A stretch of 64,000 nt of DNA from NCBI RefSeq assembly GCF_017916505.1, contig NZ_JAFMSZ010000001.1, forward strand, positions 248,001-312,000, written 5' to 3'. The translations under genes were made by a program, and so were the position numbers. The DNA is from Naasia sp. SYSU D00057. GTDB lineage: Bacteria > Actinomycetota > Actinomycetes > Actinomycetales > Microbacteriaceae. The number at the start of each line of letters is the position of its first letter. The first letter of the stretch is position 1. Below are positions 9,167-28,466 of the stretch, in pieces. The notes under the pieces were generated by a model. It ran no database searches. It saw only the letters and a list, made by a program, of their open reading frames with translations, and had not been told where the DNA came from.

Positions 9167-10303
9167 ATGCCCTCACCTCGCCACGCCGAGATCTCCGGCG
9201 CTGGATTCGCCGGGCTGACGGTGGCCACGGCGCTCGCCCAGAAGGGGTGGAGCGTCCGGGTCCACGAGCGCTCGGCCGAGCTCCGCGCCGAAGGTGCCGG
9301 CATCGTCCTCTGGGGCAACAGCCTCCAGGTCCTGGATCGGCTCGGAGCCACTCCCGACCTCGAATCCCGCGCGATGCACTCGCCGGCCTACGAGACGCGG
9401 ATGAACAACGTGATCCGCTCTCAGGAGAAGCTCGAGGGCATCCGGTGGATCTCCGTCACGCGCCCCCACCTGTACGCGACGCTGCTCACCGCGGCGCGCG
9501 AGTCGGGCGTCGAGATCATCTCCGGCTCCGAGGTGACCGGCGCGACGCCGGAGGGGCGCATCGACTTCGCCGACGGAACCTCGGCCGAGGCCGACCTCGT
9601 CGTCGGCGCCGACGGCGTGGGCTCCGCGGTCCGCGACTCGCTCGGCATCCCGCTCAAGCGGGAGCGGTCCCGCGACGGCATCACCCGCTTCCTCGTCCCG
9701 CGGCACAAGGCGGAGCTGCAGCAGCTCGAGCCGGACACCGAGTGGGACAACTACATCGACTTCTGGAACATCGAGCCCCGCGTGCTCCGCGTGCTCTACG
9801 TGCCGTGCAACGACGAGGAGGTGTACATCGCCCTGATGGCCCCGGTCAGCGACGCGCAGGGGTCGAAGGTGCCGATCGACCTCGCCCTCTGGACGGAGAA
9901 CTTCCCGCACCTCACCCCCGTGCTCGAGGAGGCGGCGAAGCTGCACGGCCGGTACTACGGGTACCAGACCACCCGGGTCGACCACTGGACCGAGGGCAGG
10001 GTCGCCATCATCGGTGACGCGGCGCACGCGATGTGCCCCGCGCTCGCGCAGGGCGCCGGCTGCTCGATCCACAACGCCTGGACGCTCGCCACCGAGGCGA
10101 CCAAGGCGTCGAACGACCAGCTGCCCGAGGTGCTCCGCGAGTGGGAGCGCCTCGAGCGGCCGATCACCGATCGCGCGCAGGACCGCTCCCAGTACTACGC
10201 CGACACCCGGCAGATGGCGCAGGGCAACCAGTTCGCGGGCGACGTCGTCGAGACGGCCCTGTACAACCCCACTGACCCGCACCGACACGAGGTGAACGTA
10301 TGA
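9167..10303 (+). CDS. 2-methyl-3-hydroxypyridine-5-carboxylate oxygenase (MHPCO)-type FAD monooxygenase
   Basis: Flavin monooxygenase of 378 residues that would hydroxylate and open the pyridine ring of MHPC with NAD(P)H and O2, giving E-2-(acetamidomethylene)succinate, the ring-cleavage step of vitamin B6 catabolism. It shows the FAD dinucleotide motif GAGFAG (11-16), the DG motif VVGADGVGS (145-153) and the GD motif GDAAHAM (283-289). WDNYIDFWN, YVPCND and GDAAHAMCPALAQGAGC closely resemble the Mesorhizobium loti enzyme Mlr6788 as I remember it. First gene of an eight-gene plus-strand cluster; GGAAAG lies eight bases before the ATG. The family is certain. The substrate rests on recalled similarity plus the neighbouring genes that encode the adjoining steps. 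Confidence 0.85.
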   Translation: MPSPRHAEISGAGFAGLTVATALAQKGWSVRVHERSAELRAEGAGIVLWGNSLQVLDRLGATPDLESRAMHSPAYETRMNNVIRSQEKLEGIRWISVTRPHLYATLLTAARESGVEIISGSEVTGATPEGRIDFADGTSAEADLVVGADGVGSAVRDSLGIPLKRERSRDGITRFLVPRHKAELQQLEPDTEWDNYIDFWNIEPRVLRVLYVPCNDEEVYIALMAPVSDAQGSKVPIDLALWTENFPHLTPVLEEAAKLHGRYYGYQTTRVDHWTEGRVAIIGDAAHAMCPALAQGAGCSIHNAWTLATEATKASNDQLPEVLREWERLERPITDRAQDRSQYYADTRQMAQGNQFAGDVVETALYNPTDPHRHEVNV

Positions 10304-10887
10304 GCATCGACCCCTACTACCGAGTCCGCGCCTTCCACTCCTTCGTGTCCGAGACCGTCCGCGAGGTGGGTCCGGCGCCCGAGCAGCCGCTCGTGAAGGC
10401 CGCCGTCGCCGTCGTGCTCGAGAACCCGTTCGCGGGCCAGTGGGTCGAGGACCTCTCGCCCCTCACCGCGCCCAGCGCGAGCATCGGCACCGAGCTCGGC
10501 CGACGTGCCGCCGAGCTGCTCGGCGGCCGGCCCGTCGAGTCCTACGGCAAGGGCGGCCTCGTCGGCCTGAACGGCGAGCAGGAGCACGTCGTCGCGTGCA
10601 TCACGACGGTCTTCGGCGACGCCCTCCGCGAGGCGGTCGGCGGCGGCAAGGCCTGGATCTCCTCGGCCTCGAAGGTCGCGGCCGCCGGGACGCAGATCGA
10701 CATCCCCCTCGCGTACAAGGATGAGGTCTACGTTCGCTCGCACTACGACGCGATGACGATCGCGCTGCCCGACGCCCCGCGGCCGGACGAGCTCGTGATC
10801 ATCGTGGCCGTCGCCACGGGCGGGCGGCCGAACGCCCGGGTGGGCGGGATGACCGCCGCCGACGTCGCAGCCCGAGACTCGCAGTAG
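10300..10887 (+). CDS. Amino-acid-synthesis (DUF1185/AA_synth) family protein, role unknown
   Basis: A 195-residue protein without signal peptide or membrane segment, overlapping the stop of the oxygenase gene by ATGA. The composition and the segments KAAVAVVLENPFAG, SYGKGGLVGLNGEQEHV and PDELVIIVAVATGGRPNARVGG fit the DUF1185 family, whose biochemistry is unsettled. No counterpart belongs to the textbook vitamin B6 degradation pathway, yet its tight coupling to the ring-cleaving oxygenase suggests a role in that step or in handling its product. That function is inference from position only. Confidence 0.7.
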   Translation: MSIDPYYRVRAFHSFVSETVREVGPAPEQPLVKAAVAVVLENPFAGQWVEDLSPLTAPSASIGTELGRRAAELLGGRPVESYGKGGLVGLNGEQEHVVACITTVFGDALREAVGGGKAWISSASKVAAAGTQIDIPLAYKDEVYVRSHYDAMTIALPDAPRPDELVIIVAVATGGRPNARVGGMTAADVAARDSQ

Positions 10888-10909
10888 TCCCTCGCAGATC
10901 AGGAAACCG

Positions 10910-11689
10910 ATGACGTATCAGCACAGCCAGTACTTCGAAGACGCCTCGATCGCGAGCGTGCTCGCGGACGTCGCCCGGGCGCACCGCATCCTCGAGCTGG
11001 AGGGGCACGGCGACATGTCCATGGGGCACCTCTCCTTCCGGGACCCCTTCGGGCGCGGCCTCTGGCTGAAGCGCGGCAACCTGGCGCTCTCCGAGGTGGA
11101 GGGCGACGATTTCATCCTCATCGACTTCGACGGCAACGTGCTCGAGGGCACCGGCCTCCGGCACCTCGAGTGGCCTCTGCACGCCGAGATCCTGAAGGCC
11201 CGCCCCGACGTCAACTTCGTCGGCCACTCGCACGCGCACTTCTCCACGGTGCTCGGCGCGTCCGAGGAGACTCTCAAGCCGTACAACAACCACGGTGTGT
11301 GGTTCGCCTATGAGGGCGTCCCGCGCTTCGCCGAGACGAGCCACATCATCACGACCGTGCCGCTGGGCGTCTCCGCGGCGCGGGCTCTCGGCCCGGCACA
11401 GGCGATCCTGCTCGCGAACCACGGCATCGCCTTCGTGGGCAGCACGGTCGCCGAGGTGACCCTCACCGGGATCTTCCTCGAGAAGGCCGCGCGCTTCCAG
11501 GTCGACCTCAAGTCGTCGGGCTTCACGCCGATCGAGCCGGACCCCGACGAGACGAAGGAGAAGTTCGACCGGATCTATCCGGCCAAGGCCCAGCACAACT
11601 TCTGGACCTACTTCAACCGCCGGCTCGACCGCGTCGAGGCCCTGCAGGGCATCGGCATCTCGCAGATCAGCCTGCCGCCCGGCATCTGA
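10910..11689 (+). CDS. Class II aldolase/adducin family protein, probable HMPDC decarboxylase
   Basis: A 259-residue metal enzyme of the class II aldolase fold. Metal ligands are visible as HSHAH (106-110) and a third histidine in ANHGI (His171). In the M. loti pathway the enzyme that removes the 4-carboxylate of 3-hydroxy-2-methylpyridine-4,5-dicarboxylate (Mlr6791) belongs to this fold. The gene lies between the MHPC oxygenase and the FHMPC dehydrogenase, exactly the steps either side of that reaction. It starts at the ATG at 10910 with AGGAAA upstream. The fold is clear; the decarboxylase assignment depends on context. Confidence 0.8.
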   Translation: MTYQHSQYFEDASIASVLADVARAHRILELEGHGDMSMGHLSFRDPFGRGLWLKRGNLALSEVEGDDFILIDFDGNVLEGTGLRHLEWPLHAEILKARPDVNFVGHSHAHFSTVLGASEETLKPYNNHGVWFAYEGVPRFAETSHIITTVPLGVSAARALGPAQAILLANHGIAFVGSTVAEVTLTGIFLEKAARFQVDLKSSGFTPIEPDPDETKEKFDRIYPAKAQHNFWTYFNRRLDRVEALQGIGISQISLPPGI

Positions 11690-11730
11690 ACCGCATCCAC
11701 CGCACCGCCAACGTCAGCTAGGAGCATCGC

Positions 11731-12672
11731 ATGAGCAGCCTTCCCAAGATCGCGACCGTCGTCGGCTCCGGGACGATGGGTCCCGGCATCGCCGCGACCC
11801 TCGCCCGCGCCGGTGTCGTCGTCCGCCTCTACGACATCTCGGACCAGGCCATCGAGAACGCGAAGGCGTCCTACGCGATGGTGAACGGCGTCCTCGAGAC
11901 CGTCGGCACGCCGAAGTCGGACGGCGGCTCCGTGGAGTTCGGGACCGACCTCGCCGCAGCGGTCGCGGACACCGAGCTCGTCATCGAGGCGATCCCGGAG
12001 CGGCTCGAGCTCAAGAAGTCGCTGCTCGCGCAGCTCGAGGACGGCCTCGTCGGCGACGACGTCATCATCGCGTCGAACACCTCCGGCATCCCGATCACGA
12101 CCATGGGCGAGGACATGCGCGTCCCCGGCCGGCTGATCGGCATGCACTGGTCCAACCCGCCGCACCTGATCCCGATGATCGAGGTGATCCCCGGCGAGGC
12201 GACCGACCCCGCGCTCGTCGACCGGCTCGTCGAGATCGTCAAGGCGTTCGACTACGTGCCCGTCGTCGAGAAGGAGACGCCCGGCTTCGTCGAGAACCGC
12301 GTCCTCTACGCGATCCTCCGCGAGTGCCTCGACCTCCTCGAGAAGGGCATCGTCACGCCGGAGGGCCTCGACGCCTGCGTCAAGTGGGGCATCGGCTACA
12401 AGCTCTCCGTCGTCGGCCCCACCCGCCTCCTCGACATGGCCGGCCTCGACATCTACAAGGCCGTCTCCAGCTACCTCAACGCCGACCTCGCGGACCGCAA
12501 GGACACCCCGGCGATGATCGAGGAGAAGATCGCCGCCGGCACCCTCGGCTTCAAGAGCGGCGCCGGCATGTACGAGTACGACGGCCCCGAGGCGATCGCG
12601 GAGAAGCGCAAGGAGATCGTCACCGGACTCGTCGCGGCCCGCAAGACGCTCTCGTCGATCCCGAACGTCTGA
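11731..12672 (+). CDS. 5-formyl-3-hydroxy-2-methylpyridine-4-carboxylate dehydrogenase (FHMPCDH)-like, HAD fold
   Basis: NAD-dependent dehydrogenase of the 3-hydroxyacyl-CoA dehydrogenase fold, 313 residues. It has GSGTMG at 12-17, IIASNTSGIP at 112-121, and the His-Glu pair expected for the fold at His139 and Glu151 within MHWSNPPHLIPMIEV. The remainder (ETPGFVENRVLYAILRE, WGIGYKLSVVGP, LLDMAGLDIYK) strongly recalls M. loti Mlr6793, which oxidises the 5-formyl group of FHMPC to the dicarboxylate. A simple fatty-acid enzyme is less likely because no CoA-handling genes are near. AGGAG lies seven bases before the ATG. Confidence 0.85.
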   Translation: MSSLPKIATVVGSGTMGPGIAATLARAGVVVRLYDISDQAIENAKASYAMVNGVLETVGTPKSDGGSVEFGTDLAAAVADTELVIEAIPERLELKKSLLAQLEDGLVGDDVIIASNTSGIPITTMGEDMRVPGRLIGMHWSNPPHLIPMIEVIPGEATDPALVDRLVEIVKAFDYVPVVEKETPGFVENRVLYAILRECLDLLEKGIVTPEGLDACVKWGIGYKLSVVGPTRLLDMAGLDIYKAVSSYLNADLADRKDTPAMIEEKIAAGTLGFKSGAGMYEYDGPEAIAEKRKEIVTGLVAARKTLSSIPNV

Positions 12673-13511
12673 TGCCCGTCACGGTCGGCGTCGAGCCGAT
12701 CGCGGACGGACTCTCCCGCACCCGGGGCGCCGAGGTCGACCTCGCGTTCCGGGTGCGGGGCTCCGGCCCGGCGATCGTGCTGCTGCACGGAACGTCGGCG
12801 AACCACGCCGTCTGGGAGCCGGTCGCCGAAGCTCTCGCCCCGCACTCCACCGTCATCGCGCTCGACCAGCGCGGCCACGGCCGGAGCGACAAGCCGGCCA
12901 CCGGCTACACCGGTCCGAGCTTCGCCGGAGACGTCGTCACCGTGCTCGACGCCCTCGGCATCGAGCGCGCGATCGTCGGCGGGCACTCGCTCGGCGGCCG
13001 CAACGCCTGGCTCGTCGGTGCGCTGCATCCCGACCGCGTGCGCGCCGTCGTCGCCGTGGACTACACGCCGTACGTGGAGTCGGGCGTGCTCGACGACCTC
13101 GCGGTCCGGGTCGCCGGCGGCTACCGCGCCTTCCCGGACCGCGCCGCGATCGAGGAGTACATCCGCGGCCGCTACCCGCGGATCCTGCCGGGCGCCGTTC
13201 AGCGCCGGGCACGCTGGGGCTACGAGCAGCGCGAGGACGGGCAGTGGTGGCCGCTCGCCGATCCGGACGCGATGCAGCAGCTCATCACGGGTTTCCGCAC
13301 CCCCTGGGACGCGGAGTTCCGGGCGGTGCCCGCCCCGATGACGCACCTGAGGGGCGTCGACAGCCGCATCCTCAGCGAGTCCGCCTGGGCCGCGGCGATC
13401 GCGGACCGGCCCGGCGACCGCTGGGTGCTGATCGACGACGCCGACCACTACATCCCGGAGGAGCACCCCGACCTCGTCGCCGCCGAGTTCGAGCGCCTGC
13501 TCGACGCCTGA
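12672..13511 (+). CDS. E-2-(acetamidomethylene)succinate hydrolase-like alpha/beta hydrolase
   Basis: Alpha/beta hydrolase of 279 residues that would split the ring-opened product into succinic semialdehyde, acetate, ammonia and CO2, completing the pathway. The nucleophile elbow is GGHSLGG with Ser106, the oxyanion region HGTSANHAVW starts at 39, and the catalytic histidine is His259 in DDADHYIPEE. DQRGHGRSDKPATGY, VDYTPYVESGVLDDL and GRYPRILPGA closely resemble M. loti Mlr6787 as I remember it. Its ATG overlaps the TGA of the dehydrogenase gene (TGATG), so the two are translated together. Cytoplasmic. Fold certain, substrate well supported by context. Confidence 0.85.
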   Translation: MPVTVGVEPIADGLSRTRGAEVDLAFRVRGSGPAIVLLHGTSANHAVWEPVAEALAPHSTVIALDQRGHGRSDKPATGYTGPSFAGDVVTVLDALGIERAIVGGHSLGGRNAWLVGALHPDRVRAVVAVDYTPYVESGVLDDLAVRVAGGYRAFPDRAAIEEYIRGRYPRILPGAVQRRARWGYEQREDGQWWPLADPDAMQQLITGFRTPWDAEFRAVPAPMTHLRGVDSRILSESAWAAAIADRPGDRWVLIDDADHYIPEEHPDLVAAEFERLLDA

Positions 13512-13552
13512 ACCCCTACCGAGAACACCACCCACCGACGAAAGGACGAGCC

Positions 13553-14008
13553 GTGGCGCTCTTCATCGACAAGCTCACGATCTCCAGCCCCGACATCCCC
13601 ACCCTCGGGCGCTTCCCCGAGGAGTTCACCGCCGACGGCGGCAACTCGGTGCCGCGCCTCGAGTTCTCCGGCGCGCCGGAGGGCACCGTCGAGTACGCGG
13701 TGATCCTCCACGACCCGGACGCGCCGCTCCCCCACGGCTTCACCCACTGGGTCGTCTACGGCATCTCGCCGCAGGCGACCTCCCTCGACGTCGACGCGCC
13801 GGGCGTCCGCCAGGCGCCGAACGGCGCCGGGGCGACCCAGTACTTCGGTCCCCAGCCGCCCGCCGGTCACGGCGACCACCACTACTACTTCTGGATCTAC
13901 GCGCTGAACCGCAAGGTCGAGGGCACGCCCACCCGCGAGGAGTTCCTCGCCCAGTACGCGGACGCCATCATCGAGCAGGCGCGATTCGTCGGAGTCTGGC
14001 AGAGCTGA
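13553..14008 (+). CDS. YbhB/YbcL-type phosphatidylethanolamine-binding (PEBP) family protein
   Basis: A 151-residue PEBP protein. The ligand-pocket motifs DPDAPLPHGFTHWVVYG and YFGPQPPAGHGDHHYYFWIY are intact. Bacterial family members have no agreed enzymatic role. GTG at 13553 is chosen because AAAGGA lies six bases before it and the family begins here; a longer reading would run into the previous gene. It sits between the hydrolase and an amidohydrolase gene in the vitamin B6 operon and ends in a TGATG overlap with the latter. It could bind a pathway intermediate, but nothing in the sequence proves that. Confidence 0.8.
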   Translation: MALFIDKLTISSPDIPTLGRFPEEFTADGGNSVPRLEFSGAPEGTVEYAVILHDPDAPLPHGFTHWVVYGISPQATSLDVDAPGVRQAPNGAGATQYFGPQPPAGHGDHHYYFWIYALNRKVEGTPTREEFLAQYADAIIEQARFVGVWQS

Positions 14009-14721
14009 TGGCGATCACCGACGCGCACTTCCACGTCGGGGACTTCCCGATGTCGGGGGTGCGCCTCGACGAGGACGGCCTCGCCCCCTACCTCGCGGCG
14101 AACGACATCGACACCGCGATGGTGTTCCACGAGGACAACGCGATGGTCCGCCGCGTGGTCGCCGGCATCCCCGGTGCGTACCAGCTGTACTGGGCGAACC
14201 CGAAGTGGGACGGCGCCGTCGCCGAGCTCCGCGAGTACCTCCGGGACCCGAAGGTGCGCGGGGTGAAGCTGCACCCGCTGTTCGGCGGCTTCCTGCCGGA
14301 CGACCCGAGGGTCCACCCGATCATCGAGGTGCTGATCGAGCACGACCTGCCGGCGCTCATCCACTGCGGGCACCCGATCTTCTCGCTGCCCTGGAGCATC
14401 GAGGAGCTGATCATCCGGTACCCCGAGGCGAAGATCATCCTCGGCCACATGGGTCACGGGAACATCGTCTACATCGACGCGTCGATCGCGATCGCCGCCC
14501 GGCACCCGAACGTGTGGCTGGAGACCAGCGGGATGCCGATGAGCCTCAAGATCAAGGAGGCCGTGGAGAAGGTGGGCGCCGACCGGGTGATGTACGGCTC
14601 GGACGGCCCCTGGCACGAGCCGAAGGTGGAGCAGCTGAAGGTGCAGCTCGCGGGCCTCGCCCCCGACGACCTGGACGCGGTGATGCACGGCACGGCCCAG
14701 CGCCTCTTCCTCGGCGCCTGA
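14008..14721 (+). CDS. Amidohydrolase-2 family metal-dependent hydrolase or decarboxylase
   Basis: A 237-residue TIM-barrel amidohydrolase. N-terminal DAHFHVGDF supplies the HxH metal ligands (His7, His9 region), GVKLHPLFGG and LIHCGHPIFS supply further histidines, and YGSDGPW supplies the C-terminal aspartate. The family includes hydrolases and non-oxidative decarboxylases such as ACMSD, so either a hydrolytic or a decarboxylating role on a B6-derived acid is possible. Last gene of the cluster that begins at 9167, coupled to the PEBP gene by TGATG. No step of the known pathway requires it, so it may mark an unrecognised branch or a salvage step. Confidence 0.75.
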   Translation: MAITDAHFHVGDFPMSGVRLDEDGLAPYLAANDIDTAMVFHEDNAMVRRVVAGIPGAYQLYWANPKWDGAVAELREYLRDPKVRGVKLHPLFGGFLPDDPRVHPIIEVLIEHDLPALIHCGHPIFSLPWSIEELIIRYPEAKIILGHMGHGNIVYIDASIAIAARHPNVWLETSGMPMSLKIKEAVEKVGADRVMYGSDGPWHEPKVEQLKVQLAGLAPDDLDAVMHGTAQRLFLGA

Positions 14722-14816
14722 CGCCTGCCGCGGGTCCTGCGGACAGCGGCCGAGGGGCCGGCACCCGGAGGTGTCCGCTCCACCCGCCGAAACGCCGTTC
14801 GACGCACGTGCCACTC

Positions 14817-16229
14817 TCAGAACGGAGGTGGTGCTTCGGCCGCCGCCGCAGCGGCGAGCCATTCGCGTTGCACGATCGGCGGCGCACCGGGACGTCGCGG
14901 CGTCGGTGGCGGCGGGAGGACCGTGTCGGCGAACGTGCGGTAGACCCTGCCCCTCGGGGAGGTCCACGCGAGCGTGCCGTCGCCGTTCCCGTGCTGGGTG
15001 ACGTTCCAGGGGCTTCCGTGCTTCAGCATGTGGTGGGCCTTGCAGAGGAACGCGAGGTTGCAGTCGTTCGACTCCCCGCCCTCTTCCCACGCGCGGGTGT
15101 GGTCGAGGTCGCAGTGAACGGCCGGGCGCGTGCAGCCGACGAACCGGCACACTCCGTCCCGGATGCGAAGCTTCGAGCGCAGCTCCTCGGGGCTCCGGTA
15201 CTTGACCTTCCCGTACTTGAGGATGATGCCCGTCTCCGGGTCGGTCAGCAGACGGATCCACTTCTCCGACATCCCGGCCAGCATGCGAGCGGTGTCGGCG
15301 TCGATCGGGCCGTAGTTCTCGAGGAACCCGGCTGCGTCGCTCTTGCCCAGCGCGGTCAGCGCCGGAATGTGCACGAACACATCGGGCGTCACCCGCCGGC
15401 GCGCCCGCGGGGACGGCTGCAGCGGCTGGTCGTCCTCGGCGGGCGGCACAGCGCCGGCGGCGTCGACCATGAGATCGCGGAAGACGTCCGCCGTGATCTG
15501 CGCCAGCGATCGGGGCTCGTCCTCGGTCTTCAGGGTCTGCGCGATGGCCTCGATCACCGCGACCACCTCGACGGCGTCCTCGGCGGACAGCAGGGCGCTG
15601 ACCCAGGCCATGCCGTCCTCGGCTCGCTCGAAGACGACCCGCCGCTCCAGCAGTGCCTCCTTGTGCCGGGCGATCAGCGACTCCGCGTCGAGCGACAGCC
15701 GGATCTCCCGAGCCTTCCGCTCGAATCGGGACGCCACGAGGTGCGTGTACGGCAGGAGGCGCTCCTCGTATTCGTGCAGCAGGTCGTCCCGCAGGCCCGA
15801 GGACTGCTCGACCAGGATCCGGGCGTGCCGCTCACTGATGACCATCCGCTCGAGCGCATCGAGGGTGTCGGGGAAGTCGTGGACCAGCTTCCGGGCCAGC
15901 TCGAGCTGCGCCTGTGCGGTGCGCTCGTGCACCTCCAGCGCCGCGGCCACCTCGGCGCGCAGGGAGCGCCACTCCAGGGCGTCCTGGTCAGTCCAGGTGG
16001 CCCCGGTCAGCGTCTCTTGCTCGAGGCGCATCGCATCCAGCAGCCGATACTGCCGCGCGGCGTGCTGACGAGCCTGACTCGCAAATTCCTCTAACTGGTC
16101 CAGCAGCGAGGGACGGGGAGAGACCGCGTCGAGAAGGCGCTGCATGAGCACGTCCTCGACAGTGCAGATACCCAGCGGATCCTCCGGGATCCCCTCGACC
16201 TGCACATCCTCGAACATGGACACAGTCAA
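14817..16229 (-). CDS. DUF222 domain and HNH endonuclease protein
   Basis: A 470-residue member of the actinobacterial DUF222-HNH family, present in many copies in Microbacteriaceae. The N-terminal two thirds is helical DUF222. The C-terminal HNH domain shows CRFVGCTRP, then CDLDHTRAWEEGG and LAFLCKAHHMLKH, giving the paired cysteines and catalytic histidine of the fold, followed by a proline/alanine-rich tail. The gene is monocistronic, convergent with the amidohydrolase gene and unrelated to vitamin B6 metabolism; it interrupts the two halves of that regulon. The biological role of the family is unknown. Confidence 0.9.
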   Translation of the reverse strand: MTVSMFEDVQVEGIPEDPLGICTVEDVLMQRLLDAVSPRPSLLDQLEEFASQARQHAARQYRLLDAMRLEQETLTGATWTDQDALEWRSLRAEVAAALEVHERTAQAQLELARKLVHDFPDTLDALERMVISERHARILVEQSSGLRDDLLHEYEERLLPYTHLVASRFERKAREIRLSLDAESLIARHKEALLERRVVFERAEDGMAWVSALLSAEDAVEVVAVIEAIAQTLKTEDEPRSLAQITADVFRDLMVDAAGAVPPAEDDQPLQPSPRARRRVTPDVFVHIPALTALGKSDAAGFLENYGPIDADTARMLAGMSEKWIRLLTDPETGIILKYGKVKYRSPEELRSKLRIRDGVCRFVGCTRPAVHCDLDHTRAWEEGGESNDCNLAFLCKAHHMLKHGSPWNVTQHGNGDGTLAWTSPRGRVYRTFADTVLPPPPTPRRPGAPPIVQREWLAAAAAAEAPPPF

Positions 16230-19124: not shown

Positions 19125-19163
19125 GCGTCTCCGATCGGAAGCGGGGTCGGCCTCAGCCGCGGC

Positions 19164-21392: not shown

Positions 21393-21420
21393 GTCCCCGT
21401 ACCGACGCACATTGTGAGAA
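21383..21420. promoter_or_regulatory. Candidate operator of the transporter operon
   Basis: TTCTCATATTGT (21383-21394) and ACATTGTGAGAA (21409-21420) form an inverted repeat matching at 10 of 12 positions, 26 bases centre to centre. The first arm overlaps the -10 box and the second lies just downstream of the predicted start, a repressing arrangement. It parallels the lactonase-unit site. Confidence 0.55.
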
Positions 21421-21472: not shown

Positions 21473-22582
21473 ATGTACAAAGCAGTCACCAGCGGCGTTC
21501 GGCGCCGCGCGGCCAGGGGCGCCGGCGCGCTTCTGGCCGCATCCGCCCTCACCATCGCGCTCGCCTCCTGCTCGTCGCAGGCGGGCGGAGGCGGCAGCGA
21601 CTCCGGCGGGGGCGGCGACGATGCCGCCACCGACGTGACGAAGCTCGCGTTCGTCGCCCCGGAGAACGAGACCGACCTCGGCTGGAACCAGGTCGGACTC
21701 GCCAACTCTGAGGCCGCGGCCGACAGCCTCGGGCTCGAATACGTCGCCGTCCCCGACGCGGGCTGGGACAACATCGAGACGGTGCTCAGCCAGGTCATCG
21801 ACGACGATGGCGCGAACTTCGTCATCGCCCACGCCTCCGGCTACGGCGTCGCGGCGCAGTCGGTGTCGGCGGAGACCGGCGTTCCGATCCTCGCTCAGGA
21901 CTCCGGCCTCGAGCCGGTCCCCGGCCAGCTGGCCCAGGCGCTCGTCTCCGCGGAGCAGGGCGGCTACATCGCCGGCATCGCCGCGGCGATGTCCACCCAG
22001 TCGAAGACGGTCGCCGTCGTCATCTCCGCCGATGACGTCAACTGGCTCGACATGGCCGCCGGCTTCGCGCAGGGCGTGTACTCCGTCGACCCGGGCATCA
22101 ACGTGCTGTTCGGCCAGATCAGCGCGAGCGGCTACGCCGACTCCGCGGGCGGCAAGGCCGCGGTCGAGACCGTCATCGCCGGCGGTGCGGACGTGGTCTT
22201 CGGCATGGGCGACGGCGCGACCCTCGGCTACCTCCAGGCGATCGACGCGCACCCGGGCGTCAAGTACATCGCCGACATCGGCGACGTGACGGGCGCGCTG
22301 CAGGACCCGAGCGCGCTGCTCACCTCCGTCATCTGGGACTACACCGCCACCTACGAGCAGGCGATCAAGGACGTCGAGGCCGGCACGTTCGGCACCGAGG
22401 ACTACCAGCTGACGGTCGGCAACGGCGGCCTGTACCTGCAGGAGACCGACAACCTCACGCAGGAGATCAAGGACGCCGTCGCGACCGCGACCGCCGCGAT
22501 CGAGGCGGGAGAGATCGAGCCGAGCGGCGCGGCGGACTCCGCCGAGGTCAAGGAGGTCATCGCCTCCAAGAAGGCCGCCTAA
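21473..22582 (+). CDS. BMP-family ABC transporter substrate-binding lipoprotein, predicted B6-vitamer binder
   Basis: A 369-residue binding protein of the basic membrane protein (PnrA/Med-like) family, usually nucleoside or related-ligand receptors. The signal peptide ends in LASC (Cys near residue 33) with a Gly/Ser/Asp tether. The body has ETDLGWNQVGLANSEAAAD, GVAAQSVSAETGVPI and GVKYIADIGDVTG, typical of BMP proteins. The start is the ATG at 21473 with GGAGAGGA about ten bases upstream. Because the operon also encodes pyridoxamine-pyruvate aminotransferase and the regulator, and the next unit encodes pyridoxal catabolism, the ligand is inferred to be pyridoxine, pyridoxamine or pyridoxal. 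Confidence 0.85.
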   Translation: MYKAVTSGVRRRAARGAGALLAASALTIALASCSSQAGGGGSDSGGGGDDAATDVTKLAFVAPENETDLGWNQVGLANSEAAADSLGLEYVAVPDAGWDNIETVLSQVIDDDGANFVIAHASGYGVAAQSVSAETGVPILAQDSGLEPVPGQLAQALVSAEQGGYIAGIAAAMSTQSKTVAVVISADDVNWLDMAAGFAQGVYSVDPGINVLFGQISASGYADSAGGKAAVETVIAGGADVVFGMGDGATLGYLQAIDAHPGVKYIADIGDVTGALQDPSALLTSVIWDYTATYEQAIKDVEAGTFGTEDYQLTVGNGGLYLQETDNLTQEIKDAVATATAAIEAGEIEPSGAADSAEVKEVIASKKAA

Positions 22583-22595
22583 GCGCCTTCGAGCG

Positions 22596-22631
22596 CCGTT
22601 CCGGTGCCGGGGGTCCCCGGCACCGGAACGG
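22596..22631 (+). terminator. Perfect 17-bp hairpin between binding-protein and ATPase genes
   Basis: CCGTTCCGGTGCCGGGG (22596-22612) pairs perfectly with 22615-22631 across a two-base centre. No T-tract follows, so it is probably an attenuating or mRNA-stabilising structure rather than a full terminator, a common way to keep binding protein in excess over the membrane subunits. Confidence 0.75.
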
Positions 22632-22678
22632 CCCGGCCGCCCTCGGCGGCGATCCGAGCGAAGAACTGAGGAGAGAGT

Positions 22679-24277
22679 GTGAGCAGCACAGCCGCTGCGC
22701 CGGGAGTGATCTCCCTGAGAGAGATCACCAAGGCGTTCCCCGGAGTCGTGGCCAATGACCGCATCTCCCTCGACATCGTCGGCGGGCAGGTCCACTGCCT
22801 GCTCGGCGAGAACGGTGCGGGCAAGTCGACCCTGATCAGCATCCTCGCCGGGATGCAGCAGCCGGACTCCGGCACGATCCTCGTGGACGGCGTCCCCACC
22901 CCCATCAACTCCCCCAAGGCGGCCGTCGACCTCGGCATCGGCGTGGTCCACCAGCACTCGACGCTCGTGCCCGCGTTCACGGTGCTCGAGAACCTGATGC
23001 TCGGCGAGACGGGGGTGCTGCGCAACGAGACCCGCGCGAAGGCACGTCTCGGTGAGCTCTCCGAGCTGCTCGGCGCCCGCATCGACCCGGACGCCCTGGC
23101 GGGCGACCTCGGCCTCGGCCAGCAGCAGCAGGTCGAGATCGCGAAGGCGATGTGGAAGGGCAGCCGGCTCCTCATCCTCGACGAGCCCACCTCCATGCTG
23201 ACGCCGCAGGCGATCGAGAAGCTCGCCGCGTCCGTCGCGCAGATCAAGGCGCAGGGCCTCGCCGTGGTGTTCATCACCCACAAGCTCCGCGAGGCCTACC
23301 AGATGGGCGACTGCGTGACGATCCTTCGCGGCGGCAAGAACGTCGGCCACATCGGCACCGAGGAGCTCGCCTCCTACAGCGAGGCGCAGGCGCAGCGCGC
23401 CATCCTCGCCGCGATGTTCGGCGACGACGTCGCCACCACCGCCGAGGCCGCCGAGCTCGCCGGCGCGACCGAGGCCGTGCGCGAGGTCGACGACCTCGAG
23501 ATCGGCGCCAAGCGGGCCCGCCTCGAGCTCACCGGCGTCGCCACCCGCGGCCACGGGCACGACGTCGACGTCCGCAACGTCTCGCTGAGCGTCCACGAGG
23601 GCGAGATCCTCGGCATCGCCGGCATCGACGGGCACGGCCAGGCGGCCCTCGCCCAGGTCGTCGCCGGCCAGCGCTCGGCCGCCGAGGGCACCATCCGCTT
23701 CGACGGCGAGGACGTCACCCGCCGCGGCGTGCGCGGTCGGCAGCAGCTGGGCCTCCGCTACGTCACCGACGACCGGCTGCACGAGGGCACCGTCGCCGGC
23801 ATGTCCGTCGCGATGAACCTCGTGCTCAAGCGGATCGGCCAGGCGCCGTTCTGGAAGATCGGCCAGATCAACCGCAAGGCGGTGGACGCGGAGGCGGAGC
23901 GGCTGATCGCCGAGTACGCGATCAAGACCCCGTCGTCCGGAACGCGAGCCGGCACGCTGTCCGGCGGCAACATCCAGAAGATCCTGCTCGCGCGCGAGCT
24001 CACCGACGGCGCACGGTTCGTCGTCGTCAACAAGCCGACGTACGGCCTCGACCTCAAGACCGTGAAGCTCGTCCGCCAGATCCTCACCGACTTCGCCGCC
24101 GGAGGGGGCAGCGTGCTGCTGCTCTCGACCGACCTCGACGAGCTTGTCGAGCTCTCGCACCGGATCGCCGTGATCTCGGACGGCGAGATCGTCGGCACCG
24201 TGCAGAACGACGGACGCGGCACCGCGGAGAAGGTCGGCCAGCTGATGACCGGAGCCATCGAGGGGGTCCACGCATGA
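22679..24277 (+). CDS. ABC transporter ATPase with two nucleotide-binding domains (sugar/nucleoside type)
   Basis: A 532-residue tandem ATPase of the RbsA/NupA class. Domain one has Walker A GENGAGKST (near 52-60), a relaxed signature LGLGQQQQVEIAKAM and Walker B LLILDEPTSML. Domain two has a degenerate P-loop (GIDGHGQAALAQ) and a good signature LSGGNIQKILLAREL. Such asymmetry is normal in this class. It energises the two permeases encoded next. The GTG start at 22679 follows GAGGAGAG. Overlaps the next gene by ATGA. Confidence 0.9.
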   Translation: MSSTAAAPGVISLREITKAFPGVVANDRISLDIVGGQVHCLLGENGAGKSTLISILAGMQQPDSGTILVDGVPTPINSPKAAVDLGIGVVHQHSTLVPAFTVLENLMLGETGVLRNETRAKARLGELSELLGARIDPDALAGDLGLGQQQQVEIAKAMWKGSRLLILDEPTSMLTPQAIEKLAASVAQIKAQGLAVVFITHKLREAYQMGDCVTILRGGKNVGHIGTEELASYSEAQAQRAILAAMFGDDVATTAEAAELAGATEAVREVDDLEIGAKRARLELTGVATRGHGHDVDVRNVSLSVHEGEILGIAGIDGHGQAALAQVVAGQRSAAEGTIRFDGEDVTRRGVRGRQQLGLRYVTDDRLHEGTVAGMSVAMNLVLKRIGQAPFWKIGQINRKAVDAEAERLIAEYAIKTPSSGTRAGTLSGGNIQKILLARELTDGARFVVVNKPTYGLDLKTVKLVRQILTDFAAGGGSVLLLSTDLDELVELSHRIAVISDGEIVGTVQNDGRGTAEKVGQLMTGAIEGVHA

Positions 24278-25488
24278 TCGAAGAGCTTCCGCGCTGGCGT
24301 CGGATCACCGACACCGTCGTGCGCTCCGTCCTCCCCGTCGTCCTGGCGCTCGTCGTCGCCGGGCTGATCATCGCCGCGATGGGCAGCAACCCGCTCGACT
24401 TCTTCGCCGGCGTCTGGAAGTACGGGGTCACGGGCAACAACTGGCAGGACAGCCTCCGGCTGATGGCACCGCTGATGATCATCGCCCTCGGCCTGATCGT
24501 CGCGTTCCGCGGCCAGCTGTGGAACCTCGGCTACAACGGCACGTTCCTGCTCGGATCGGTCGTCGCCGCCGGCGCGGGCCCGGTCCTCTTCCCGATCCTG
24601 CCCGGCTGGCTCGTGACCGCGGTCATCATCGTCGGCGCGCTGCTCATCGGCGCGATCTGGTCGATCGTGCCCGCCGTGCTCAAGGCCCGGTTCGGCACGA
24701 ACGAGATCATCACCTCGCTCGTCATGTCGTTCATCGCGATCGGCGTCGTGAACCTGCTCATCAAGGGGCCGCTGCACGACCCGAACCCTCGAGTGACGGC
24801 CCCGCAGACCGCGACCATCGACCGCGCTGACCTGCTGCCCTTCTTCGGCGGCACCCGCGTGCACGTCGGCTTCCTGGTAGCGATCGCGCTGGCGTTGGTC
24901 GCGCAGTTCGTGATCAGCCGGACGTCGTTCGGTGTCCGGCTCGACGTCTTCGGGGCCAGCCCGAAGGCCGCCCAGCACGTCGGCATCAGCCGCAGCTGGA
25001 TGATCGTCCTGCTGTTCAGCCTCTCCGGCGCCCTGATCGCCCTCGCGGGCACGATCGACGTGCTCGGCAACGTCACGTACATGCGGGCGAACTGGAACCC
25101 CGGGTACGGGGACGCCATCCTGCCCTTCGTGTTCCTCGCGCGGCTGAGCCCCCTGGGCGCGATTCCGCTCGTGGCCTTCTACTCGGTCTTCGCGAACGGC
25201 GGCATCAACGCCGCCCGCAGCGTCGGACTCAGCTCCGACTTCCTGCTCGTCGTGGTCGGTCTGATCCTCGTGTTCATGACGATCACCGAGTACGTCGGGG
25301 ACAAGCGCCGGCTCGGGCAGAGCTACCTGCCGGCCGGCATGAAGCAGTCGGTGATGTCGCTCTTCGGCCCCCGCACCACGGCCACAACCCGGGTCCCGTC
25401 CTCTCCCGAGAAGGCGACCACTCCCCCGGAGAAGGTCAGCACCACGAAGACGACGGCGACGCGCGCGCCCGGAAAGGTGACGACATGA
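24274..25488 (+). CDS. ABC transporter permease (BMP-type importer), with Thr/Lys/Pro-rich tail
   Basis: A 404-residue permease of the branched-chain/nucleoside-like superfamily with about nine hydrophobic segments. GQLWNLGYNGTFLLGSVVAAG and NEIITSLVMSFIAIGVVN are the conserved stretches of the family. After residue about 365 the protein continues into an unusual low-complexity tail rich in Thr, Lys and Pro (SPEKATTPPEKVSTTKTTAT), not needed for transport and probably cytoplasmic. Coupled to both neighbours by ATGA overlaps. Confidence 0.88.
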   Translation: MIEELPRWRRITDTVVRSVLPVVLALVVAGLIIAAMGSNPLDFFAGVWKYGVTGNNWQDSLRLMAPLMIIALGLIVAFRGQLWNLGYNGTFLLGSVVAAGAGPVLFPILPGWLVTAVIIVGALLIGAIWSIVPAVLKARFGTNEIITSLVMSFIAIGVVNLLIKGPLHDPNPRVTAPQTATIDRADLLPFFGGTRVHVGFLVAIALALVAQFVISRTSFGVRLDVFGASPKAAQHVGISRSWMIVLLFSLSGALIALAGTIDVLGNVTYMRANWNPGYGDAILPFVFLARLSPLGAIPLVAFYSVFANGGINAARSVGLSSDFLLVVVGLILVFMTITEYVGDKRRLGQSYLPAGMKQSVMSLFGPRTTATTRVPSSPEKATTPPEKVSTTKTTATRAPGKVTT

Positions 25489-26417
25489 GCGAGCTGCTGT
25501 CGGCGACGGTCCTCGCCGCCTTCCTCACGGCGATCATCGTCCAGACGATGCCGCTCATCCTCGCCGCCGTCGGCGAGACGATCGGCGAGCAGTCCGGGGT
25601 GCTCAACCTCGGCATCGAGGGCGTCATGCTCGTCGGCGCGTACAGCGGCTACGTGACCGCCCTCGTCACCGGCAGCCCGTGGCTGGGGATGCTCGGCGGC
25701 ATCGCTGGAGGCGTGGTCGCGAACCTCCTGATGCTCGTCCTCAACATCTGGCTGGGGCTCAACCAGATCGTCATCGGCCTCGCGATCACGCTGATGGGCG
25801 AGGGCATCACGGCCGTGCTCTACCTCCAGAACTACGGCAAGAGCCCGCAGAGCGTGCCCGGCGACGCCTGGGTGATCCCGGGACTGTCGGACCTGCCGGT
25901 CGTCGGACCGTCGCTGTTCCGGCAGTCCGGCATCTTCTGGGTGCTCCTCCTCACCCTGGTCGTGGTCGCGTTCCTTCTCGCGAGGACGAACTGGGGCCTG
26001 TCCATCCGGGCCGCCGGGCAGAAGCCGTCCTCGCTCGACGCGGCCGGCGGCAACGTGGTGCGGACCCGCTCCTCCGCGGTCCTGCTCAACGGCGCGTTCG
26101 TCGGAGCGGGCGGAGCTTTCCTCTCCGTCCTCACGACCGGAACCTTCACCCCATTCATGACGGGTGGCCTCGGGTTCATCGCGATCGTCATCACGATGCT
26201 CTCCCGCGGGCGGGTGGCCTGGATCGTCGTCACCTCGCTGCTCTACGGCATCGCGGTCGCGATCAAGAACCCGCTGCAGCTGATCGGCGTCACCGTCCCG
26301 GCCGACGTCTTCCAGATGCTGCCGTTCATCGTCGTGATGCTGACGCTGATCATCTTCGCGCGGAGCTCCATGGTGCCGCCGGCACTCGGCGCCCCGTACA
26401 CCCGCGGCGCGCGCTGA
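25485..26417 (+). CDS. ABC transporter permease, second subunit
   Basis: A 310-residue hydrophobic protein with about eight to nine membrane segments. LILAAVGETIGEQSGVLNLG followed by IEGVMLVGAY is the classic opening of the smaller permease of BMP-dependent importers, and GLNQIVIGLAITLMGEG is the conserved cytoplasmic loop. It forms a heterodimer with the product of the previous gene. The PPAT gene follows 35 bases later with its own AGAGAGGA, so the operon continues. Confidence 0.9.
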   Translation: MSELLSATVLAAFLTAIIVQTMPLILAAVGETIGEQSGVLNLGIEGVMLVGAYSGYVTALVTGSPWLGMLGGIAGGVVANLLMLVLNIWLGLNQIVIGLAITLMGEGITAVLYLQNYGKSPQSVPGDAWVIPGLSDLPVVGPSLFRQSGIFWVLLLTLVVVAFLLARTNWGLSIRAAGQKPSSLDAAGGNVVRTRSSAVLLNGAFVGAGGAFLSVLTTGTFTPFMTGGLGFIAIVITMLSRGRVAWIVVTSLLYGIAVAIKNPLQLIGVTVPADVFQMLPFIVVMLTLIIFARSSMVPPALGAPYTRGAR

Positions 26418-26452
26418 CGCGTCCGCTTCCGACCGTCAGAGAGGACCGTCCC

Positions 26453-27661
26453 ATGCAGAAGCTCGAGTTCACCCTGTCCGCGGGGCCCGTGGAGGTCACC
26501 GCGGCGACCCTGGCGGGCCTCGCGAAGCCGATCCAGTACCACTACGACGACGACTTCAAGGCGACGTTCCGCCGGGTGCAGGAGAAGACGGCCGAGATCC
26601 TGCAGACCCGGAACGACGTGCTCATCCTGCAGGGCGAGGCGATCCTCGGCCTCGAGGGCGCCCTCAAGTCGCTGGTGACCCCTGGCATGAAGGTGCTCAA
26701 CCTCGTGCAGGGCATCTTCGGCAAGGGCACCGGGTACTGGCTCCGCGACTTCGGAGCAGAAGTGCACGAGCTCGAGGTCGGCTACGACGACGCCGTGACG
26801 CCCGAGATGGTCGAGGAGTTCCTCGACGCCCATCCCAGCATCGAGATGGTCTGCCTCGTCGCCTCCGAGACCCCGTCGGGCACGGTCACCGACGTCTCCC
26901 GGATCGGCCCCATGTGCCGCGACCGCGGCATCCTTACCTACGTCGACACCGTGTCCGGCGTGCTCGGCATGGAGCACCGCACCGACGACTGGGGCCTCGA
27001 CCTCTGTGTGACCGGCCCGCAGAAGTGCCTCGGCGGCGCTCCCGGCCTCTCCCTCATCTCGGTGAGCCAGCGCGCCTGGGACAAGATCTACTCGAACCCG
27101 GCGGCCCCGCGCGACTCCTACCTCTCCCTCCTCGACTGGAAGGAGAAGTGGCTCGGCGACGGGCGCTTCCCGTACACGCCGTCGGTCAGCGACATCAACG
27201 GCCTCGAGGCCGCGCTCGACCAGGCCCTCGCCGAGGGCATCGACCAGGTCATCCAGCGCCACGTCGACGCCCGCGAGCTCACCAAGGCCGGGGCCCGTGC
27301 GATGGGCCTCGAGTTCTGGGCGCGGCGCGAGGAGAGCATGTCGGCGTGCGTGACCTCGATTCGCCTCCCAGACGACATCGACAACGCCGAGGTGCGCGAC
27401 CTCGCCCGATCGAAGTACGGCGTGATGTTCTCCCACGGCCAGGGCGCCGGCAACCTCATCCGCCTCTCCCACATGGGCTCGACCGCCGGCGGGTTCCACT
27501 CGATCGTCGGCCTCACCGCGCTCGGCCGGACGCTGCTCGACCTCGGCATGAAGCTCGACCTCGGCATGAAGCTCGACGTCGGCGCCGGCGTGGACGCGGC
27601 GCTCGAGGTGCTGAGCGAGCAGCGGGGGCGTCAGCGCAGCGCCGCCGACGCGCTGGTTTAG
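26453..27661 (+). CDS. Pyridoxamine-pyruvate aminotransferase (PPAT)-like class V aminotransferase
   Basis: A fold-type I aminotransferase of 402 residues that would transfer the amino group of pyridoxamine to pyruvate, giving pyridoxal and alanine. This enzyme uses pyridoxamine as substrate, not PLP as cofactor. LSAGPVEV opens the protein, ETPSGT is at 139-144, and the Schiff-base lysine is Lys191 in VTGPQKCLGGAPGLS. FPYTPSVSDINGLEAALD closely resembles M. loti PPAT (Mlr6806). Alanine-glyoxylate transaminase is the usual automatic label for this family, but the company of pyridoxal catabolic genes makes PPAT far more likely. An 18-bp in-frame tandem repeat near 27536-27571 lengthens a C-terminal helix. 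Confidence 0.85.
   Translation: MQKLEFTLSAGPVEVTAATLAGLAKPIQYHYDDDFKATFRRVQEKTAEILQTRNDVLILQGEAILGLEGALKSLVTPGMKVLNLVQGIFGKGTGYWLRDFGAEVHELEVGYDDAVTPEMVEEFLDAHPSIEMVCLVASETPSGTVTDVSRIGPMCRDRGILTYVDTVSGVLGMEHRTDDWGLDLCVTGPQKCLGGAPGLSLISVSQRAWDKIYSNPAAPRDSYLSLLDWKEKWLGDGRFPYTPSVSDINGLEAALDQALAEGIDQVIQRHVDARELTKAGARAMGLEFWARREESMSACVTSIRLPDDIDNAEVRDLARSKYGVMFSHGQGAGNLIRLSHMGSTAGGFHSIVGLTALGRTLLDLGMKLDLGMKLDVGAGVDAALEVLSEQRGRQRSAADALV
27536..27577 (+). repeat. In-frame 18-bp tandem repeat inside the PPAT gene
   Basis: The unit CTCGACCTCGGCATGAAG occurs twice (27536-27553 and 27554-27571), plus six bases of a third copy, encoding the peptide LDLGMK twice. It is perfect at DNA level, so it is either recent or prone to slippage. 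Confidence 0.9.
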
Positions 27662-27674
27662 GCTCGACGCCTCT

Positions 27675-28466
27675 ATGAATGCCATGAATGCACCGGACGG
27701 GGTGGAGCCGGTTCCCTCTCTCGCGCAGCGGACCAAGGGTGTCGACAGCGCCCGGCGGGTGCTGCAGATCCTCCTCCAGTTCTCGGAGAGCCGTCCCGAG
27801 CTCACCATCGACAACGTGCTCGAGAGCTTCGACATCTCGGTGCCGAGCGCCTACCGCTACCTGTCGCTGCTGCGGGAGATGAACCTCATCGAGGAGCGCA
27901 GCAAGGGCACGTTCGTGCTCAGTCCGCGCATCCTTCAGCTCGCCCACTCGGCGGAGGCGTCGCTCGACTACCGGACCCTCGCGCAGCCGATCCTCGATCG
28001 CATGCGCGAGGAGACCGGCGAGACGGCGCTGTACCTCCGCCGGGTCAACGACGCCGCCGTCTGCCTCGCGATCGCCGAGAGCGACCACCAGATCTCGATC
28101 TCGTTCCAGCCGGGTCACCTGATGCCGCTGCACCAGGGCGCCGCGCCGAAGGTGTTGCTCTCCGAGTACAGCGACGCGAAGCGGGAGCAGTACATCGACC
28201 TGCTCCGCCCGCCCATGTCGAAGGCGGCCCGCGCGAAGCTCGAGGCGGATCTGGGGGCGATTCGGGACAGCGGGTACGCGGAGTCGGCTGCTGAGGTCGA
28301 CGCTGGGGTGTGGGCTGCTGCTGCCGCTGTGCGGTCCTACGGCGCGCTCGTCGGTGCGGTCACGGTCGTCGCGCCCGCGTATCGGCTCTCCGAGTCGCAT
28401 CGGCGGCAGATCGGGGATGTCGTGCGGGCCGGGGCGGCGGAGTTCGAGGCGGTCATCGCGCAGTAG
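27675..28466 (+). CDS. IclR-family transcriptional regulator of the vitamin B6 regulon
   Basis: A 263-residue IclR protein. The N-terminal winged helix includes DNVLESFDISVPSAYRYLSLLREM (roughly residues 52-75, given here across the helix-turn-helix), and the C-terminal effector domain has the usual GETALYLRRVND and LHQGAAPKVLLSEYSD segments. The gene starts 13 bases after the PPAT stop with no strong ribosome site of its own; a second in-frame ATG at 27684 is an alternative start. It is the only regulator in the regulon, so it probably senses a B6 vitamer or 4-pyridoxate and binds the TTCTCA-type sites upstream of the transporter and lactonase units. Confidence 0.85.
   Translation: MNAMNAPDGVEPVPSLAQRTKGVDSARRVLQILLQFSESRPELTIDNVLESFDISVPSAYRYLSLLREMNLIEERSKGTFVLSPRILQLAHSAEASLDYRTLAQPILDRMREETGETALYLRRVNDAAVCLAIAESDHQISISFQPGHLMPLHQGAAPKVLLSEYSDAKREQYIDLLRPPMSKAARAKLEADLGAIRDSGYAESAAEVDAGVWAAAAAVRSYGALVGAVTVVAPAYRLSESHRRQIGDVVRAGAAEFEAVIAQ

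Follow-up and report, generated by a model that had tools for sequence, protein, structure and literature searches.

The window analysed here, a stretch of 64,000 nucleotides from the 3.36 Mb genome of Naasia sp. SYSU D00057 (Microbacteriaceae), contains between positions 9167 and 28466 a set of genes for the degradation of vitamin B6. Judging from sequence comparisons, it is nearly certain that this catabolic gene set is real, and it is likely that it constitutes a regulon for the catabolism of vitamin B6 via 4-pyridoxate, in which a homologue of FHMPC dehydrogenase replaces the separate 4-pyridoxate dehydrogenase of the GMC flavoenzyme family. According to strand and spacing the genes form three operons (9167-14721 on the plus strand, 17586-20699 on the minus strand and 21473-28466 on the plus strand). 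A first-pass annotation of the window had proposed the same three transcription units, and all genes named by it were recovered at their places as long open reading frames with coding-like GC3. Its central statement, vitamin B6 catabolism via the 4-pyridoxate route, is well supported by the best matches of seven enzymes in the PDB, by NCBIfam models and by conserved co-location. It had also described the pathway as nearly complete and overlooked that the enzyme for the step from 4-pyridoxate to FHMPC is missing. The loss of this flavin-dependent step and the existence of relatives that presumably use only 4-pyridoxate are the new part; the set as a whole is a variant of a known pathway, which is partly named by NCBI models already.

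The proposed pathway would begin with the uptake of unphosphorylated B6 by a BMP-type ABC importer. Pyridoxamine would be converted to pyridoxal by pyridoxamine-pyruvate transaminase (PPAT) and pyridoxine by the GMC oxidase, and pyridoxal would be turned into 4-pyridoxate by an SDR-type dehydrogenase and then a lactonase. The FHMPC dehydrogenase homologue would use NAD to oxidize the 5-hydroxymethyl group via the aldehyde to the acid, resulting in the dicarboxylate HMPDC, in place of the rhizobial GMC-type 4-pyridoxate dehydrogenase. Decarboxylation by a class II aldolase-type enzyme would yield 2-methyl-3-hydroxypyridine-5-carboxylate (MHPC), the ring of which would be opened by an FAD oxygenase, and an alpha/beta hydrolase would finally release succinic semialdehyde, acetate, ammonia and CO2. 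For each of these steps, the activity is what we infer from homology.

Identity of the enzymes

The enzymes were identified by searching all PDB sequences and comparing the bit score of the best match with that of the next different enzyme; start codons were checked. Sequence comparison establishes to which families seven enzymes and, via NCBIfam models, the importer belong; the best PDB match of each of the seven is a B6 enzyme of the Mesorhizobium loti type. The GMC flavoenzyme (17586-19124, minus strand) matches 3t37 ('Probable dehydrogenase', 557.0 bits) and 4ha6 ('Pyridoxine 4-oxidase', 556.7 bits) far better than the next enzyme (263 bits) and forms one clade with 15 proteobacterial enzymes in the position of Mlr6785 (support 100/100). 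The first-pass annotation had listed this flavoenzyme and left its role unassigned; by these comparisons it is to be classified as a pyridoxine 4-oxidase. The 4-pyridoxolactonase (19941-20699, minus strand) scores 257 bits with 3aj3 and 129 bits with the next enzyme, and it reaches 423.7 bits with NF047925 (cut-off 325). We also considered this gene of the MBL fold as an AiiA-type N-acyl homoserine lactonase and rejected this, since the AiiA model gives 151 bits only, compared to 424 bits for 4-pyridoxolactonase. The smallest gap among the seven enzymes is that of the SDR-type pyridoxal 4-dehydrogenase (19164-19889, minus strand), with 236 bits for 3ndr and 191 bits for the next enzyme; here, NF047923 gives 362 bits and thus exceeds its cut-off of 325.

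The PPAT (26453-27661, plus strand) scores 335 bits with 2z9u and 122 bits with the next different enzyme. The depositors' label of 2z9u is 'Aspartate aminotransferase'; we take this structure to be the PPAT of M. loti, which agrees with NF046070 as the best NCBIfam model of the window protein. Four residues with ascribed roles in PPAT (Glu68, Asp171, Lys197 and Arg345 in the numbering of the literature) are conserved. By homology, the entry enzymes of the 4-pyridoxate route (pathway A) for both pyridoxine (GMC) and pyridoxamine (PPAT) are present.

Upstream of the PPAT gene and on the same strand lie the four genes of the putative B6 importer, for which NCBI provides 'putative B6' models. The binding lipoprotein of the BMP type (21473-22582; NF047927, 425.6 bits, cut-off 400), the ATPase (22679-24277; NF047930, 791.5 bits, cut-off 670) and permease 2 (24274-25488; NF047929, 448.5 bits, cut-off 400) all exceed the cut-offs, whereas permease 1 (25485-26417) has NF047928 as its best model with 338.1 bits and stays below the cut-off of 465. 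The expectation that automatic annotation would miss the genes of the pathway is not supported: above their cut-offs, NCBIfam names both the lactonase and the dehydrogenase as well as three of the importer genes.

In the lower pathway, encoded on the plus strand, the MHPC oxygenase (9167-10303) matches 3alj with 388 bits (next 88 bits; the aligned part is 53% identical), the FHMPC dehydrogenase (11731-12672) matches 4om8 with 316 bits (next 164 bits) and the hydrolase of (E)-2-(acetamidomethylene)succinate (12672-13511) matches 3kxp with 195 bits (next 76 bits). Compared to the Mesorhizobium locus L035, the sequence identities amount to 52% for the oxygenase, 50% for the FHMPC dehydrogenase, 41% for the hydrolase, 53% for the GMC enzyme and only 29% for the decarboxylase. 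The latter (10910-11689; PF00596) is a class II aldolase-type protein that presumably converts HMPDC to MHPC, as its position and family suggest. It belongs to a different subfamily than its counterparts in two Mesorhizobium loci (29-33% identity), and the L035 protein at its place matches Mlr6791 with 462 bits; according to these comparisons the Naasia enzyme is not the orthologue of Mlr6791. A pattern of His and Glu positions is common to the actinobacterial and the rhizobial decarboxylases in the alignment, and the window-type decarboxylase is found with more than 300 bits in all 12 complete actinobacterial clusters. Among the enzymes that had been matched to M. loti steps in the first-pass annotation, the decarboxylase is the exception to the confirmation by the best PDB match.

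The lower-pathway genes are grouped in 12 further actinobacterial loci and in the 56 loci of proteobacteria that have a full-length FHMPC dehydrogenase. Since this grouping is conserved across two phyla, a co-location by chance is excluded.

The missing GMC enzyme, a presumed 4-pyridoxate dehydrogenase

In rhizobia, the genes occur in the order hydrolase, oxygenase, PF06684 protein, PEBP-family protein, Mlr6791-type decarboxylase, GMC enzyme and FHMPC dehydrogenase. The GMC gene beside the FHMPC dehydrogenase gene (second-type GMC in the following) corresponds by position to Mlr6792, which we take to be the 4-pyridoxate dehydrogenase. A second-type GMC gene is present in 56/56 proteobacterial loci with a full-length FHMPC dehydrogenase and absent from the fetched stretch of all 13 actinobacterial loci, the window included. 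Eleven of the 79 oxygenase loci were not counted, either due to a contig end (L012, L085), lack of an FHMPC dehydrogenase (L023, L025, L027, L054, L076, L078, L081, L084) or a dehydrogenase in two pieces (L064), and the GMC gene of L083 was counted as present though its longest open piece comprises 371 aa. The GMC gene of L083 (about 13100-14650) and the FHMPC dehydrogenase gene of L064 (about 14700-15700) are in pieces due to mutation or assembly error.

The absence of the second GMC enzyme also holds for the Naasia genome, as far as the search for PF00732 shows: the sole match is the window enzyme, which in the tree joins the pyridoxine oxidases of proteobacteria (22 rows, 100/100) and is separate from the 15 second-type rows (100/100). 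The alternative assignment of the window GMC enzyme as a 4-pyridoxate dehydrogenase was set aside on the basis of this tree and the scores. Ruicaihuangia caeni, which carries the lactonase, the dehydrogenase, PPAT, the importer and the lower pathway, has no GMC match anywhere in its genome. The other 11 genomes searched gave 32 GMC matches, and three of the 13 full-length rows placed in the tree are window-type oxidases. The absence is therefore firm for Naasia and Ruicaihuangia and less so elsewhere.

A second line of evidence comes from the gene content of the actinobacterial clusters, which fall into different types. All six type I genomes (that of the window, G009, G010, G011, G013 and G014) possess the lactonase, the SDR dehydrogenase, a PPAT of at least 401 bits and the B6 importer over the cut-off. 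In contrast, none of the seven type II genomes (G012 and G015-G020), the completeness of which is unreported, has a lactonase at 1e-30, a dehydrogenase at 1e-60, a PPAT above 259 bits or a BMP protein over the cut-off (best 115 bits), but in all seven, the genes of an ABC importer that includes a binding protein of the NMT1 type lie just 5' of the oxygenase gene. The NMT1-type assignment was made by Pfam for L016 only, and the binding protein of L016 is 53% identical to the binding protein encoded 3' of the FHMPC dehydrogenase gene in L035. This gene content is as expected for scavengers of 4-pyridoxate. The type II enzyme of Microbacterium marinilacus clusters with the Naasia-type rows (100/100) rather than with the remaining type II rows, which makes it probable that type II arose more than once.

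The FHMPC dehydrogenase belongs to an alcohol-oxidizing family and is the only dehydrogenase found in the type II operons. Since these genomes possess just the lower pathway and the NMT1-type importer, without lactonase and pyridoxal dehydrogenase, their FHMPC dehydrogenase must act on the imported compound. As the textbook enzyme for the conversion of 4-pyridoxate to FHMPC is missing, the neighbouring FHMPC dehydrogenase would carry out two steps in a row, and we infer that the actinobacterial enzyme carries the oxidation of 4-pyridoxate through to the dicarboxylate HMPDC. The actinobacterial and the proteobacterial enzymes are separated by 18 alignment columns, each of them at least 90% constant. 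One of them is column 116 within the motif SNTSG, which is Asn in 13/13 actinobacterial and Asp in 56/56 proteobacterial enzymes; Asn is also present in three ordinary members of the family (L004-L006). In a tree of 30 rows, two Asn-containing enzymes from a third type of cluster join the proteobacterial clade with weak support (82/70), which would make Asp the derived state.

The enzyme of M. loti is reportedly an NAD-dependent dismutase, and one group is said to have named the same gene 4-pyridoxate dehydrogenase. Two M. loti papers in the reference list of PMC3538738 have conflicting titles, and the genes that they name are reportedly mlr6793 and mlr6792.

Regulation

The last gene of the set (27675-28466, plus strand) encodes an IclR-family regulator (TIGR02431, 101 bits, below the cut-off). 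In the two intergenic regions of the gene set (265 and 773 bases), the putative operator TTCTCRYA occurs four times, with 0.06 sites expected, and none of 20000 sequences simulated from the dinucleotides of the two regions reaches four. One site lies upstream of the oxygenase operon (9109-9116, minus strand), one upstream of the lactonase operon (20746-20753, minus strand) and two upstream of the importer operon (21383-21390, plus strand, and 21413-21420, minus strand). Three related loci (L007, L008, L009) each possess one site upstream of the oxygenase gene and three between the lactonase and importer genes, and sites are also located near the first genes in L010, L011 and L013. An IclR gene is present in L010, L011 and L013-L019 as well. 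The IclR protein probably controls all three operons via the putative TTCTCRYA sites, and the term 'regulon' used in the first-pass annotation is fair, albeit unproven.

A different palindrome, TATYAN5TRATA, was found just 5' of the first importer gene at L014:7116, L015:7115, L018:7077 and L019:7108 and 5' of the oxygenase gene at L011:9919. It may be the operator of another IclR subgroup; as an operator of the window it was rejected, since it has no match there.

Evaluation of alternative explanations

Several observations weigh against the interpretation presented here. Two enzymes stay below the cut-offs of their best NCBIfam models, namely PPAT with NF046070 (412 bits, cut-off 600) and the FHMPC dehydrogenase with NF042925 (407.5 bits, cut-off 500). 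In PPAT, Arg336 is replaced by Gln and Tyr95 by Phe; Gln at position 336 also occurs in the PPATs of five other actinobacterial clusters and Tyr in a sixth (L135); position 68 is Thr in two more distant transaminases (L128, L129) and Glu in that of a type II Streptomyces (L127). Among the PDB matches of the decarboxylase, an 'Aldolase' ranks first with 83 bits, and Mlr6791 follows in no more than fourth place with 61 bits. The Asn/Asp split in the FHMPC dehydrogenase divides essentially two clades and may therefore reflect a single event. The sequence TTCTCRYA was first picked by eye and thus chosen after looking, it is not enriched over the whole window (6 sites, 3.3 expected; 11 of 100 shuffles reach 6), and it is not found upstream of the type II operons L014-L019. 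Finally, all ten distant GMC rows placed in the tree reach their highest score (201-402 bits) with the second-type query, although they fall outside the second-type clade, some of them on long branches, and three genomes with the third type of cluster hold GMC matches as well, which are outside the tree. The lack of a GMC enzyme leaves room for another kind of 4-pyridoxate dehydrogenase, which may be encoded elsewhere in the genome.

This leads to the alternative that survives best, which we nevertheless regard as unlikely: the pathway could be that of M. loti, with 4-pyridoxate oxidized by a separate enzyme encoded away from the cluster, such as a zinc alcohol dehydrogenase or, among the relatives, a distant GMC enzyme. 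Several related genomes indeed contain further GMC genes, but the Naasia genome does not. In four loci (L011:6091-7523, L013:6679-8096, L133:6268-7697, L134:6311-7110), a gene pair encoding a VOC (glyoxalase) protein and a zinc alcohol dehydrogenase lies beside the lactonase and dehydrogenase genes. However, neither the window nor the type II loci gave a tblastn match to this pair at 1e-10. Moreover, the clusters with the pair have no pyridoxine 4-oxidase nearby, and since L011 and L013 lack this oxidase, the pair is more simply read as its replacement, which it may be.

It is rather improbable that the GMC enzyme encoded in the window accepts 4-pyridoxate in addition to pyridoxine and in this way fills the gap. 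The presence of two GMC genes in the rhizobial clusters and of one in Naasia would fit this idea, but the tree places the window enzyme with the oxidase and not with the second GMC enzyme, R. caeni has the pathway without any GMC match, and in the Streptomyces genomes of L016 and L017 the matches are no more than weak and partial (27.8 to 34.8 bits). Very improbable is the idea that a different substituted pyridine, and not B6, is the physiological substrate, as in pathway B via 5-pyridoxate, since homologues of the dehydrogenase, the lactonase and PPAT, of a kind acting on the 4-side of the ring, occur in one set with B6 importer genes, even though MHPC oxygenase modules without FHMPC dehydrogenase (L023, L025, L027, L054, L076, L078) indicate that the lower module may serve several upper routes. 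As the identity of the cluster, pathway B was set aside, since the 4-pyridoxate type of the dehydrogenase, the lactonase and the FHMPC dehydrogenase speaks against it; no pathway B gene was available as a yardstick. The replacement of the GMC-type 4-pyridoxate dehydrogenase by the FHMPC dehydrogenase homologue is the interpretation that we regard as likely.

Companion proteins of the oxygenase operon

The oxygenase operon encodes three further proteins, all on the plus strand. The first one (10300-10887) belongs to PF06684 (AA_synth/DUF1185, TgnF-like; Pfam 218 bits) and the second one (13553-14008; PF01161, TIGR00481) is a PEBP-family protein (YbhB/YbcL), the GTG start of which was set by alignment. 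In 73 of the 79 oxygenase loci, the PF06684 gene is located at most 2.5 kb from the oxygenase gene, and a PEBP gene is likewise present in the stretch of 73/79 loci, five of which lack the FHMPC dehydrogenase. Both proteins belong to the pathway, and since they are kept beside the oxygenase, PEBP even without FHMPC dehydrogenase, they would go with ring opening or a later step. The first-pass annotation had not listed these two proteins, the four-gene ABC importer and the IclR regulator as members of the set.

For the PF06684 protein, a role as a helper at the succinic semialdehyde step is plausible by analogy to the degradation of trigonelline (Tgn), which passes through a related amidomethylene-succinate. 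According to PMC7913881, TgnF of Acinetobacter baylyi, a homologue of the PF06684 protein HcdD, stimulates the oxidation of succinic semialdehyde, but no such stimulation was observable with HcdD. According to PMC3538738, the B6 pathway likewise yields succinic semialdehyde as its end product; the two routes share this compound and differ in their substrate. The AlphaFold model (mean pLDDT 88.6) yielded three Foldseek hits with E <0.001, all of them chains of the two known PF06684 structures 3byq and 2qtp; a link of the fold to RidA imine/enamine deaminases, and thus to the clearing of enamines, did not emerge and is left as speculation.

The third protein (14008-14721; PF04909, 116 bits), the gene of which overlaps the stop codon of the PEBP gene, is an Amidohydro_2 family protein. 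It is restricted to the Naasia-type clusters L007, L008 and L009 (cut in L001). Decarboxylases are among the members of this family, and the protein may be a second decarboxylase.

Distribution of the clusters

By identity of the MHPC oxygenase, the nearest named relatives of the host are Naasia aerilata (93%) and a Naasia metagenome bin (91%). Within the genus, three of nine genomes contain an FHMPC dehydrogenase of more than 400 bits. At E ≤1e-80 it was found in 1/396 genomes of the order (the host itself) and in 4/396 genomes of the phylum (the host included), five candidates being scored per genome in these searches. A spread by plasmids was rejected, since no match to the FHMPC dehydrogenase was obtained at 1e-60 among 72,556 plasmid records.

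Three other genomes of the Actinomycetota (G629, G670, G556) define type III. Their loci (L133:6268-19383, L134:2-7110, L135:3-10685) combine the lactonase, the dehydrogenase and the FHMPC dehydrogenase with genes for a xanthine dehydrogenase-type molybdenum hydroxylase. Of this hydroxylase, L133 and L134 encode the large and the iron-sulfur subunit and L135 encodes the FAD subunit; a cupin and a luciferase-like monooxygenase are additionally encoded in L133. No MHPC oxygenase is present within the 19.9, 7.1 and 11.5 kb read, and type III possibly represents a different ring-opening route.

Conversely, the six loci mentioned above as modules without FHMPC dehydrogenase in the fetched stretch contain homologues of the MHPC oxygenase and the hydrolase. 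Except for L025, they also possess the PF06684 and PEBP genes and share a common importer, which comprises two permeases and a binding protein of the NMT1 type (by Pfam in L027). These loci may serve the scavenging of MHPC or pathway B via 5-pyridoxate.

Comparison with known systems and neighbouring genes

Naasia shares with M. loti (mlr67xx-mlr68xx) the oxygenase, the hydrolase, the FHMPC dehydrogenase, the pyridoxine oxidase, the dehydrogenase, the lactonase and PPAT, and with the Mesorhizobium loci the PF06684 and PEBP genes near the oxygenase. It differs in the lack of the second GMC enzyme, the decarboxylase subfamily, the two replaced PPAT residues and the Asn in place of Asp in the FHMPC dehydrogenase. 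PMC3538738 gives mlr6786 as the hydrolase gene, which had been listed as mlr6787 in the first-pass annotation. The six NCBIfam models NF047923, NF047925 and NF047927-NF047930 match the dehydrogenase, the lactonase and the importer of Naasia, and leave the lower pathway uncovered.

The novelty of the pathway for actinobacteria is smaller than had been implied, since another actinobacterium, Microbacterium luteolum, is known to start the oxidation of B6 with a pyridoxine 4-oxidase and a pyridoxal 4-dehydrogenase (PMC2642769). The dehydrogenase of M. luteolum is described there as an aldo-keto reductase, whereas that of Naasia is of the SDR type. In two further papers, 4-pyridoxic acid was tested only against an RNA element (PMC1273637) and the M. 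loti work is merely cited (PMC12188741). Among the matches listed in the open-licence literature there was no work on actinobacterial gene clusters for B6 degradation; we do not claim that they are unpublished.

Between the first and the second operon lie a gene for a protein of 470 aa (14817-16229) without NCBIfam match, which presumably carries an HNH-like C-terminal motif, and a tRNA-Arg gene (16741-16819). A second ABC importer at 42691-49013, perhaps for nucleosides or purines, is distantly similar to the B6 importer (ATPase 328 bits) and adjoins an Amidohydro_1 gene. The stretch 53484-61239, of lower GC content, resembles a mobile or defence region: two genes for C5-cytosine methylases are located there together with a Schlafen group 3 helicase-domain gene.

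Implications

The gene set defines modules, namely an upper B6 module that includes the BMP-type importer and a lower one that can also occur by itself, combined with a different importer. Between Naasia and Mesorhizobium (L035), the uncharacterized PF06684 protein (66% identity) and PEBP protein (60%) are better conserved than the oxygenase, the FHMPC dehydrogenase and the hydrolase.

For a more general scenario we would put the chances at about even. In Actinobacteria, one NAD-dependent enzyme of the 3-hydroxyacyl-CoA dehydrogenase family would perform the four-electron oxidation of 4-pyridoxate to HMPDC without a flavin dehydrogenase. Rhizobia would have added the GMC enzyme, and their FHMPC dehydrogenase would have become specialized, with a change from Asn to Asp at column 116. 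The second actinobacterial group (Streptomyces, Streptomonospora, Georgenia, Arthrobacter and M. marinilacus) would be specialized in scavenging 4-pyridoxate, which animals release as a waste product of B6 and which they would take up by the NMT1-type ABC importer. The 13 actinobacterial clusters examined can be regarded as a natural experiment on the conflict about the M. loti genes, in which the counterpart of mlr6793 is kept and that of mlr6792 is absent, and the disagreement thereby becomes testable with one purified protein.

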